39,947 bases of DNA from Dehalococcoidia bacterium (lineage in GTDB: Bacteria; Chloroflexota; Dehalococcoidia; CAUJGQ01). The notes beneath the pieces were generated by a model. It had not been told where the DNA came from, made no database searches, and worked only from the letters and a program-made list of their open reading frames with translations. Made by a program: the position numbers and the translations under genes. The stretch is taken from contig DATGEL010000119.1 in NCBI GenBank assembly GCA_035310145.1, positions 1 to 39,947 of the forward strand, in the 5' to 3' direction. Positions 1 to 10,053 of this stretch are shown here, in pieces (within the stretch, counting starts at the first letter, position 1; each line of letters starts with the position of its first letter).

Positions 1-213
1 GTTCGTAGTCTGGATCGCGGCGTTGAGCAGATCCTGGGCGCTGAGCGTTGGCGTCGGCGTGGCGAGGCGGCCGTTCTGGGGTGTTGGGGGTTTGTGATTG
101 TTCTTACCAGAGCCGCAGGCCGCGACCAGCAGCAGCACCGCCAGCGCCTGCAGCAGCAGCCGCCAGCGGCCGGCAAGAAGCGCCCACGCGGCCCGCCGCG
201 CCGTGCTGCTCAC
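1..213 (-). CDS. Lipoprotein, N-terminal part (gene runs off the left edge)
   Basis: Reading the minus strand from a GTG at 213 gives 71 codons that stay open to the window edge. The N-terminus is arginine-rich, followed by a hydrophobic stretch rich in Leu and Ala and a lipobox (LLVAACGSG), so the product should be exported and lipid-anchored at the Cys near residue 33. After it comes a Pro/Thr linker and the start of a folded part (LSAQDLLNAAIQ). That pattern recalls LppX/LprG-like lipoproteins, which bind lipids, but too little is visible to assign the family. The GTG overlaps the selD stop codon as GTGA, so the two genes are probably translationally coupled in one operon. A functional link with selenium is not evident. 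The signal peptide is clear; the family is a guess. Confidence 0.72.
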   Translation of the reverse strand, partial: MSSTARRAAWALLAGRWRLLLQALAVLLLVAACGSGKNNHKPPTPQNGRLATPTPTLSAQDLLNAAIQTTN

Positions 214-1259
214 CGTACGACCTGCAGGCCGGCGCCGCTGAGCGCCTCGCCGATCTGCCAGCAGCGGACGCCCTGCTCCCTGCACGCCGCCTCGAAGTCG
301 CCGGCGCGATCTGCCGGCAGCGTGGCCAGCAGGCCGCCGGAGGTTTGCGGGTCGTAGAGCAGCTCGACCAGCTCGCGCGGCAGATCGGAGGCAAGATCGA
401 CCCTGGCGGCAACGTACGCCTCGTTGCGGTTGCTGCCGCCCGTGCGCACGCCGGCGCGGATCGCTTCGAGAGCGCCGGGCAGCGCCGGCACGGCCTCGGC
501 AAGGATACGCAGGCGCACACCGCTGGCGCAGGCGACCTCGTCCGCGTGGCCGAGTAACCCGAAGCCGGTCACGTCGGTGAGCGCCGTCGCGTCCGCCGCC
601 CGCGCGGCGAGCGAGGCGCCGCGGTTGAGCTGCAGCATCGAGGCCACGGCCGCATCGAGATCGGCGGCCGCCAGTTTGCCATCCTTGAGGCTGGAGCAGA
701 GCACGCCGGTGCCCAGCGCCTTGGTCAGGTAGAGGCGGTCGCCCGCCCGCGCGCCGCCCTTGGTCAGGATGCGCTGCGGGTGCACGCTGCCGGTCACGGC
801 GAGGCCGTACTTCGGCTCCGGGTCGTAGATCGAGTGCCCGCCCGCGACCACACCGCCGGCCTCGCGCACCTTCTCGGCGCCGCCGCGGAAGATCTCCGCG
901 ACCACCTCTTCCGGCATCGTCTCGGGGAAGGCGGCGATGTTGAGCGCGAACAGCACCTCGCCGCCCATCGCGTAGATGTCGCTCATCGCGTTGGCGGCGG
1001 CCACGGCGCCGAACTGATAGGGGTCGTCCAGCACCGGGGCAAAGAAATCCAGCGTCTGCACGATCGCCTGCGCGTCGTTCAAACGGTAGACGGCGGCGTC
1101 GTCCGCGACCTGCAGGCCGACCAGCAGATCGGGGGCGTTCACGCCGGCGAAGGCAGCGGTCAAGGGGCGCAGCACCTGCGCCAGGGCTCCGGGCCCAACC
1201 TTGGAGGCTCAACCGCCGCAGGAGACGAGCGAAGTCAGCCGAACTGGCGCGCTGGTCAC
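210..1259 (-). CDS. selD: Selenide, water dikinase; itself a selenoprotein (in-frame TGA = Sec17)
   Basis: SelD makes selenophosphate from selenide and ATP, the selenium donor for selenocysteine and selenouridine. A plain ORF starts only at a GTG at 1175 and lacks the catalytic N-terminus. Reading upstream in the same frame gives MTSAPVRLTSLVSCGG, then TGA (1211-1209), then ASKVGPGALAQVLRPL. This is the SelD active-site segment: the TGA sits at residue 17, the position of catalytic Cys17 in E. coli SelD, and Lys20 follows. The start is the GTG at 1259, preceded by AAAGGGGG (1276-1269) nine bases upstream. The product is 349 residues, the usual family length. Downstream are the GGHS segment, the DVTGFGLLGH motif and the DPQTSGGLL motif near the C-terminus. 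The gene overlaps the following lipoprotein gene by GTGA. Sec in SelD is known in other bacteria; decoding here is inferred from position and the hairpin after the TGA. Confidence 0.95.
1166..1182 (-). promoter_or_regulatory. Bacterial SECIS hairpin candidate in selD
   Basis: On the mRNA strand the bases GGCGCAG-GUG-CUGCGCC form a perfect 7-bp stem with a GUG loop. The apex reads GCAGGUGCUGC, close to the GCAGGUCUGC apex of the E. coli fdhF SECIS bound by SelB. The loop lies 34-36 bases after the UGA, inside the usual 16-37 base range. A bulged U is not obvious. A structure probing or SelB-binding test would settle it. Confidence 0.65.
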
Positions 1260-1408
1260 GGACGATCACCCCCTTTCCGGCGAACTCTGCGCCACGCGGG
1301 CGCCTGCAGCGATCGTACGGGGACGGCTGCCGCGCGGCAAGCTGCTGCCGGGCGGTCAACTGCTCGCGCTGAGCGCAACTGTCGCGTGGCGAAAGCGCGA
1401 GACGGCGG

Positions 1409-7900: not shown

Positions 7901-8272
7901 ATGAGTGATGCACTCCAGACCGTGCAGGAGTTCTGCGCGGCCTGGTCAAAGCTGGACGCGGAGCTGCTGCTCGGCTACTTCGCCGAGGACGCGGTCTACC
8001 ACAACATTCCCATGCAGCCGATGCACGGACGCGAGGCCATTGGCGGCTTCCTGCGCCGGTTCACAGGGCAGGCGAGCGCGGCGCAGTTCGAGATGCTGCA
8101 CATCGCCGCCAGCGGCGATACGGTGCTGACCGAGCGCATCGACCGCTTCACCCTGGGCGAGCGACGGATCGCGCTGCCGGTGATGGGCGTCTTCGAGCTG
8201 CGCGACGGCAAGATCGCCGCCTGGCGCGACTACTTCGACCTGACCGACTGGCAGAAACAGTCGCGCGGTTGA
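7901..8272 (+). CDS. Limonene-1,2-epoxide hydrolase-like NTF2-fold protein
   Basis: A 123-residue NTF2/SnoaL-fold protein. The pocket residues match limonene-1,2-epoxide hydrolase of Rhodococcus: Tyr33 and Asn35 (YHNIP), Arg79 and Asp81 (ERIDRF), and an Asp in WRDYFD (110 or 113). The Tyr-to-Arg spacing of 46 equals that of the known enzyme (Tyr53, Arg99). That enzyme opens an epoxide with water by a single push-pull step; an epoxide-opening role is therefore a reasonable inference here, but SnoaL-fold proteins are versatile. GAGGAGG lies upstream of the ATG. It is the middle gene of the operon with the cyclase-like protein and the unknown 588-residue protein. Confidence 0.85.
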   Translation: MSDALQTVQEFCAAWSKLDAELLLGYFAEDAVYHNIPMQPMHGREAIGGFLRRFTGQASAAQFEMLHIAASGDTVLTERIDRFTLGERRIALPVMGVFELRDGKIAAWRDYFDLTDWQKQSRG

Positions 8273-8286
8273 GTGGGAGGCGCCTC

Positions 8287-10053
8287 GTGACGCAGGCGAC
8301 GTTCGCCTCGCTGCCGGGCGCGGACGGCGCCCGTTCGCCGCTGGATTCCGCCCTGCTCGCCGCGGGTGCCGGCAAGGATCAGGTCGAGCTTTATCTGCGC
8401 ACCTTCGGCACGCTGCTGCGCAGCTCGGGCGAGCTGCGCCTGCGCACGCTCGAGGCCACGCACATCGGCATGCACTCCAGCCTGCATTCAGGCGCGGGGC
8501 TTGCCGAGCCCGACCTCGGCGCCTTTATCTATGCCACGCAGCGACTGCCCTCCGTGATGCCGCGCGTGCGCCATGTGGTTATGGGCCAGACGCCGGAGAG
8601 CTTCGCGCAGGCGCTGGGGGAAGACGTTGGCGCCTGGCAGCAGGTGGCGGCGCCGGGCCGGCGACGGCGCTGCCACTTCGACGGGCGCGACTGCCTGGCC
8701 GTCTTCATCGCCAGCCAGTCGGACGTGGACGACCTGATCCCCACGCTGGTGGCCTGGCAGATCGAGTGGAACAAGCTGCACGCCCTGCTGCGCGGTTTCG
8801 CCACGGGCAATGGCCACGGCAGCGAGCCGGAGGCGGAGCCCTGGCGCCTGTTCGGCGGCGTGGCGGACGACTGGCGTCGCCTGCAGGCGATCTGGGGAAC
8901 AGGGTTTACGGCGCTGCTTGCCGACGTGGCGCGCGGCGACCTCAACCTGACGGTGCGGATGCTGGGCGGCACACACGTCGGCTACGCGCAGGCGACGGCG
9001 CGCTGGTGGCAGCCGATCGCCAACGCGATCGCGCGTGAGGGGCTGGACGGCCGTCCGATCTACTTCGTCTCCAGCAACACGCACAGCCTCGTCAACCTTC
9101 TCTCTGGCGTGGCGCTGCGCCACCAGGAGGCGATCATCGAGCACGTCGAGCAGGCGGGCGAGCGGGAGCTGGCCGAGGAGCTGGCGAAGCTGCGCTCCGG
9201 CGCCAGCCGCGGCAACTGGCACAACTTCCTCTATTACGCGGCCCGCAGCTTCTTCCGCGAGCGGCCCGAACGCCAGCAGTTGCGCCTGCGCGAGGAGCAC
9301 GCCCGTGGCATCGCCTTCGTGCCGCCGCACGCCGCGATCGAAGTGGCGGCGCAGATCATTGCGCTCGACCGCCTGCACCCGAAGGACCTCGACCCGCGAC
9401 TCGGCACCCTCTCCGCCGCGCGGCTGCGGGCAAGCCGGGCGATCGTCGTCAACATCGATTACCCGCTGGGCATGGCGGCCTACAACATCATGCGCGCGGT
9501 GATGGAGCGCACGGGGGAGCTGCGCGGCGTCTACGTGTTGGGCAAGGCGGCCACGCTCAACGCCAGCGTAGGCGACGTGATGATCCCCGACGTCGTGCAC
9601 GACGAGCACTCGATGAACACCTACTGGCTGGACAACTGCTTCAGCTACGAAGACGTCGGCCCGTTCCTGGTCTTCGGTTCGGCGCTGGATCACCAGCGGG
9701 CGGTAACGGTGAAGGGCACGTTTTTGCAGAACAAGGGCTATCTCGACCTCTACCACCGCGAGAGCTACACGGCGGTGGAGATGGAGGCAGGGCCATACTT
9801 GGACGCGCTCTACGAGGGAGCGCGGGCCGACCGCTATCCCGAAGGCCAGAGCATCAACTTCGCCAAGCTGCCCTTCGACCTCGGTGTGATCCACTACGCC
9901 TCCGACACGCCCTATACCCAGGCGCGTACGCTCGGCGCGCGGGCGCTGGACTACCGCGGCATCGACTCGACCTACGCCTCAGCCGTCGCCATCCTGCGGC
10001 GTGTGCTGGTGCGAGAGGGGGTGACCGCCGCGGCAGAACCCGCGAACCCCTGA
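8287..10053 (+). CDS. Unrecognised 588-residue protein with a nucleoside-phosphorylase-like C-terminal part
   Basis: I cannot name this family with confidence. The N-terminal two thirds look helical, with conserved-looking patches such as ATHIGMHSSLHSGAG, LGGTHVGYAQATARWW and YFVSSNTHSLVNLL. The last third resembles the purine nucleoside phosphorylase fold: a strand IVVNIDYPLGMAAYNIM, then GVYVLGKAATLNASVGDVMI (the VGD motif near residue 430), and YTAVEMEAGPYLDAL near 498, which mimics the EMEA substrate-binding motif. No signal peptide or membrane segment is seen. The GTG at 8287 has GGGAGG six bases upstream; a TTG at 8269 is an inferior start. It closes the operon with the cyclase-like and epoxide-hydrolase-like genes. 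A role in nucleoside or nucleotide-like metabolite turnover is only an inference. Confidence 0.75.
   Translation: MTQATFASLPGADGARSPLDSALLAAGAGKDQVELYLRTFGTLLRSSGELRLRTLEATHIGMHSSLHSGAGLAEPDLGAFIYATQRLPSVMPRVRHVVMGQTPESFAQALGEDVGAWQQVAAPGRRRRCHFDGRDCLAVFIASQSDVDDLIPTLVAWQIEWNKLHALLRGFATGNGHGSEPEAEPWRLFGGVADDWRRLQAIWGTGFTALLADVARGDLNLTVRMLGGTHVGYAQATARWWQPIANAIAREGLDGRPIYFVSSNTHSLVNLLSGVALRHQEAIIEHVEQAGERELAEELAKLRSGASRGNWHNFLYYAARSFFRERPERQQLRLREEHARGIAFVPPHAAIEVAAQIIALDRLHPKDLDPRLGTLSAARLRASRAIVVNIDYPLGMAAYNIMRAVMERTGELRGVYVLGKAATLNASVGDVMIPDVVHDEHSMNTYWLDNCFSYEDVGPFLVFGSALDHQRAVTVKGTFLQNKGYLDLYHRESYTAVEMEAGPYLDALYEGARADRYPEGQSINFAKLPFDLGVIHYASDTPYTQARTLGARALDYRGIDSTYASAVAILRRVLVREGVTAAAEPANP

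Follow-up and report, generated by a model that had tools for sequence, protein, structure and literature searches.

The selD gene near the edge of this Dehalococcoidia contig raises the question of whether SelD (selenide water dikinase) is itself a selenoprotein in this organism, i.e., whether an in-frame TGA close to the beginning of the gene is read as selenocysteine (Sec), or whether the gene begins downstream of that codon as a plain ORF call would have it. The window referred to below is the whole stretch of DNA analyzed (39,947 nucleotides), and it belongs to a draft genome of 5.32 Mb in 148 contigs that is 99.8% complete. The nearest relatives of its SelD place the organism in the Chloroflexota. 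We consider it almost certain that the window selD is an intact gene whose product is a selenoprotein with UGA read as Sec. The features on which the analysis is built are as follows.

210..1259, minus strand: selD (selenide water dikinase), 349 amino acids including Sec17, with GTG start at 1259 and stop TGA at 212-210
1264..1275, minus strand: ribosome-binding site AAGGGGGTGATC, from the sequence, a near-perfect match
1209..1211, minus strand: in-frame TGA at the position of E. coli SelD Cys17, predicted to encode selenocysteine; TGA or a Cys codon in 108 relatives
1166..1182, minus strand: bacterial SECIS hairpin GGCGCAG-GUG-CUGCGCC, 7 bp, with a loop of 3 nt that begins 33 nt past the UGA, from synonymous-codon conservation
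1184..1196, minus strand: weak nearer hairpin GGGC-CCGGA-GCCC, at the site used for the SECIS in many other Sec-SelDs

A mechanical ORF finder calls selD as 210..1175 with 321 amino acids, and the active site is lost; the first-pass annotation had warned of exactly this naive start and had pointed to a strong ribosome site at an upstream one, and both statements hold. Read on the minus strand from 1259, the gene runs GTG ACC AGC GCG CCA GTT CGG CTG ACT TCG CTC GTC TCC TGC GGC GGT TGA GCC TCC AAG and then enters the hairpin at 1182-1166, and from the start codon (1259-1257) the frame is intact to the TGA at 212-210. GTG 1259 is the sole ATG, GTG, or TTG after the preceding in-frame TGA (1268-1266) and ahead of the Sec TGA, and it is the only standard start because of that preceding TGA and of AAGGGGGTGATC at 1275-1264. 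A start at GTG 1175, giving a shortened SelD-like protein that lacks the active-site loop and leaving the upstream match as chance or a relic, is what the mechanical call offers, but we regard it as very unlikely: the 16 upstream codons match SelD (VRLTSLVSCGG), as they do in close relatives, the strong ribosome site accompanies the sole possible upstream start, and the hairpin is kept at silent sites across relatives, as detailed below. GTG 1175 is itself the loop of the SECIS hairpin. Plain annotation would truncate selD; with the start at GTG 1259, both the beginning and the product of the gene are now fixed.

Translated with Sec at the TGA, the protein scores 371.6 bits against the curated SelD model TIGR00476 (cut-off 125) and 340.7 bits against NF002098 (cut-off 299), and it aligns with E. 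coli SelD (PDB ID: 3u0o) over residues 4-344 (E 2e-74), i.e., the homology is full-length. The TGA had been placed at the catalytic Cys17 position, with SCGG-TGA-ASK aligned to Cys17 and Lys20; the alignment with 3u0o gives the same placement, the window TGA codon lying on Cys17 and the window Lys on Lys20. The N-terminal loop feature that marks SelD, i.e., Sec or Cys at 17 together with Lys at 20, is thus present, and so is the feature of a bacterial selenoprotein, an in-frame UGA where homologues have Cys or Sec. Lys20 is kept in both proteins, whereas E. coli SelD has Cys at 17 and 19 and the window SelD would have Sec17 and Ser19.

The TGA could instead be a sequencing error for TGC or TGT, or the gene could be dead. 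A draft genome in 148 contigs leaves some room for such an error. Against it, 26 of the 27 remaining class genomes that hold a full SelD share this TGA, as do about 58 other relatives, all separate assemblies, and no further interruption occurs in the frame before the stop; an error or a pseudogene seems to us even less likely than the internal start. At position 17, all 108 readable SelD relatives have TGA or a Cys codon (85 TGA, 16 TGC, 7 TGT, no other codon), a set made of the class genomes and a wider contig set with a few genes in both. Full SelD is present in 28 of the 41 class genomes, our own included, and the best SelD carries TGA in 27 of them and TGC in one (G031). A strong tRNA-Sec match, with the line of >60 bits chosen by us from a gap in the scores, is found in 24 of the 27 Sec-SelD genomes versus 1 of the 14 others (Fisher p 4e-7). 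tRNA-Sec was undetected in three Sec-SelD genomes (G006, G010, and G027), two of which are about 80% complete, with scan filters that were stricter; the single Cys-SelD genome G031 has a weak match of 45.7 bits and no convincing one. As a separate observation, two different Sec-SelD genes are apparent in the class relative G008 (contigs C193 and C194, 55% and 48% identical to that of the window), an assembly with 9% contamination.

For the hairpin downstream of the TGA, the parts on the minus strand are GGCGCAG at 1182-1176, the GTG loop at 1175-1173, and CTGCGCC at 1172-1166, and, counted from the final base of the UGA, the loop occupies +34 to +36 (33 nt between), the very spacing given in the first-pass annotation. 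In E. coli formate dehydrogenase fdhF, the SECIS is a small-loop stem topped by a CAGGU motif, with the loop about 18 nt after the UGA; the window SECIS shares both features, but its loop lies 33 nt past the UGA. The hairpin alone has about -11.3 kcal/mol. According to PMC13188914, a bSECIS has a stem of 4-16 bp, a loop of 3-9 nt whose first two positions include G, a distance of 16-37 nt from the UGA, and MFE <= -7.5; in our practice these published limits were applied by script in place of the bSECISearch program, and the window hairpin lies within all of them (7 bp, GUG loop, 33 nt, -11.3). When these rules are applied together with the energy limit, 55 of 81 Sec-SelDs pass versus 5 of 22 Cys-SelDs, and many of the Sec-SelDs that fail miss the energy line alone, some narrowly.

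Please note that the hairpin alone is weak evidence, because an equally strong allowed hairpin follows 35 of the 844 TGAs in this GC-rich window, and the folding energy of the stretch that holds the hairpin is no better than that of shuffled sequences (z -0.62). Folding energy was therefore rejected as proof of a SECIS, being not significant by itself. It is the conservation across relatives that makes the evidence strong. The 35 Sec-SelDs with the peptide [QH]VLR form 236 of 245 stem pairs, against 159 expected when synonymous codons are drawn from the codon usage of each gene (z 12.7), and all 81 Sec-SelDs form 392 against 299 expected (z 11.0), values that overstate independence because the genes share kinship; the window selD by itself gives p 0.078. 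Of 37 genes, 34 use GCG as the Ala codon in the hairpin, while GCG makes up 34% of the Ala codons elsewhere in these genes, and some stem pairs change on both sides among relatives (G-C to T-A or A-T).

Sec-containing SelD is already known in bacteria (PMC1794560, PMC4561486, PMC13188914), in agreement with what had been noted for this gene at the outset, and the window selD is hence a well-supported further example of that type. About 19% of the prokaryotic SelDs in a reference set carry Sec, always at position 17, according to PMC4561486, which also notes the misannotation of selenoprotein genes. The window SelD resembles the bacterial Sec-SelDs of these three papers in family, codon position, a SECIS just downstream, and Cys forms in relatives, with no difference in the protein; the difference lies in the SECIS, whose loop, at a distance of 33 nt from the UGA, comes close to the upper limit of 16-37 nt, whereas many other bacterial Sec-SelDs have their hairpin at 16-20 nt.

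This nearer, alternative SECIS, GGUCC-GGN-GGACC, places its loop about 17 nt downstream of the UGA. Classified by simple rules with exact registers, the 81 Sec-SelDs fall into 21 with the far hairpin only, 29 with the near only, 18 with both, and 13 with neither, the last class including several that carry a shifted near hairpin. The window selD is far-only: its near hairpin at 1184..1196 is down to 4 pairs with a CCGGA loop that does not start with G, and it is probably a relic or an accessory. On the SelD protein tree, a quick one with the hairpin codons left out, a short search, and many open forks, the far hairpin is gained or lost at least 13 times, and for the far-only label at least 5 changes are forced by the starred branches alone. 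We lean slightly toward the view that the SECIS in SelD has been relocated time and again between two fixed sites, about 16 nt from each other, often via genes keeping both, and that the window gene, with its decayed near hairpin, represents the far-only state. If this is true, the repeated relocation would be a natural record of SelB tolerance for the SECIS-UGA distance. The comparative set, with the SECIS of one gene at two UGA distances, is useful for testing SelB reach. No discussion of two SECIS places in SelD was found in the main texts of the papers examined on Sec-SelD and bSECIS.

As for the decoding, the organism had been predicted to carry selA, selB, selC, and further selenoproteins, and the complete machinery is indeed there: tRNA-Sec at 74.4 bits (also called by ARAGORN, as tRNA-SeC with anticodon tca), selB at 325 bits (cut-off 242), and selA at 520 bits (cut-off 268). 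Family searches in our own genome, covering chosen families, yielded ten further genes with in-frame TGA at catalytic positions in selenoprotein-type families.

Own genome, L143-L148, family search: four peroxiredoxin/AhpC-TSA genes with in-frame TGA (SAAW-U-PYC, GG-U-TNEF, SW-U-GCR, HYG-U-PFC), one DsbA-like gene with in-frame TGA (YI-U-PWC), and one SelW-like gene with in-frame TGA (CVT-U-Q)
Own genome, L149, L150, L151, and L152 (contigs C17, C38, C31, and C80): four CMD/AhpD-type genes with TGA at the expected redox Cys, e.g., GCHY-U-VPTH

Most of the ten have a small G-bearing loop 16-25 nt after the UGA; the C41 peroxiredoxin and the C44 SelW-like gene have only weak hairpins by the script rule. 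Sec is unusually concentrated in the CMD/AhpD-type family, where each of the four genes has a nearby G-loop hairpin. SelD as the sole selenoprotein is ruled out by these ten genes, and the total with SelD is up to eleven. PMC5029168 defines a selenoprotein-rich organism by six selenoproteins; with up to eleven versus six, our genome is above that mark, and the data strongly support Sec decoding in a selenoprotein-rich Chloroflexota genome. Formate dehydrogenase was considered as the main selenoprotein and rejected, the six molybdopterin-oxidoreductase matches being without an internal TGA and the FdhA-like one among them (C113) having Cys in its LCHSPSV motif, i.e., the Cys form. SelU as another use of SelD was likewise dropped (selU was not found in the own-genome search), and the thioredoxin family of this genome has no TGA.

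A readthrough of the UGA by near-cognate suppression or a frameshift, inserting a residue other than Sec, has nothing specific in its favor; UGA alternates only with Cys codons in homologues, tRNA-Sec, SelA, and SelB are present, and the SECIS is conserved, and we take this to be the most improbable of the alternatives. UGA is almost certainly decoded as Sec in the cell, judging from codon, hairpin, and machinery. Translation would start at GTG 1259, and SelB, docked on the hairpin 1182-1166, would bring Sec-tRNA-Sec, made by SelA from selenophosphate, to the ribosome at the UGA (codon 17), after which translation would continue to the stop at 210. The catalytic role is assigned by analogy with the known SelD family: the Sec17 selenol and Lys20 would form the mobile N-terminal loop handling selenide, and SelD would make selenophosphate from selenide and ATP, and would therefore supply the synthesis of SelD itself as well as of about ten more redox selenoproteins.

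Elsewhere in the window, a search for genes with in-frame TGA gave no convincing case; this kind of search requires long flanks, and selD too would escape it. Window positions 8269-10053 encode a 594-amino acid protein with a DUF6909 (PF21850) match of 701 bits, of unknown function. On the minus strand at 1-213, a lipoprotein-like gene (VSSTARRAAWALLAGRW...LLVAACGSG, lipobox) is cut by the contig end. Its GTG start at 213 shares bases with the stop codon of selD, and the two genes look translationally coupled.
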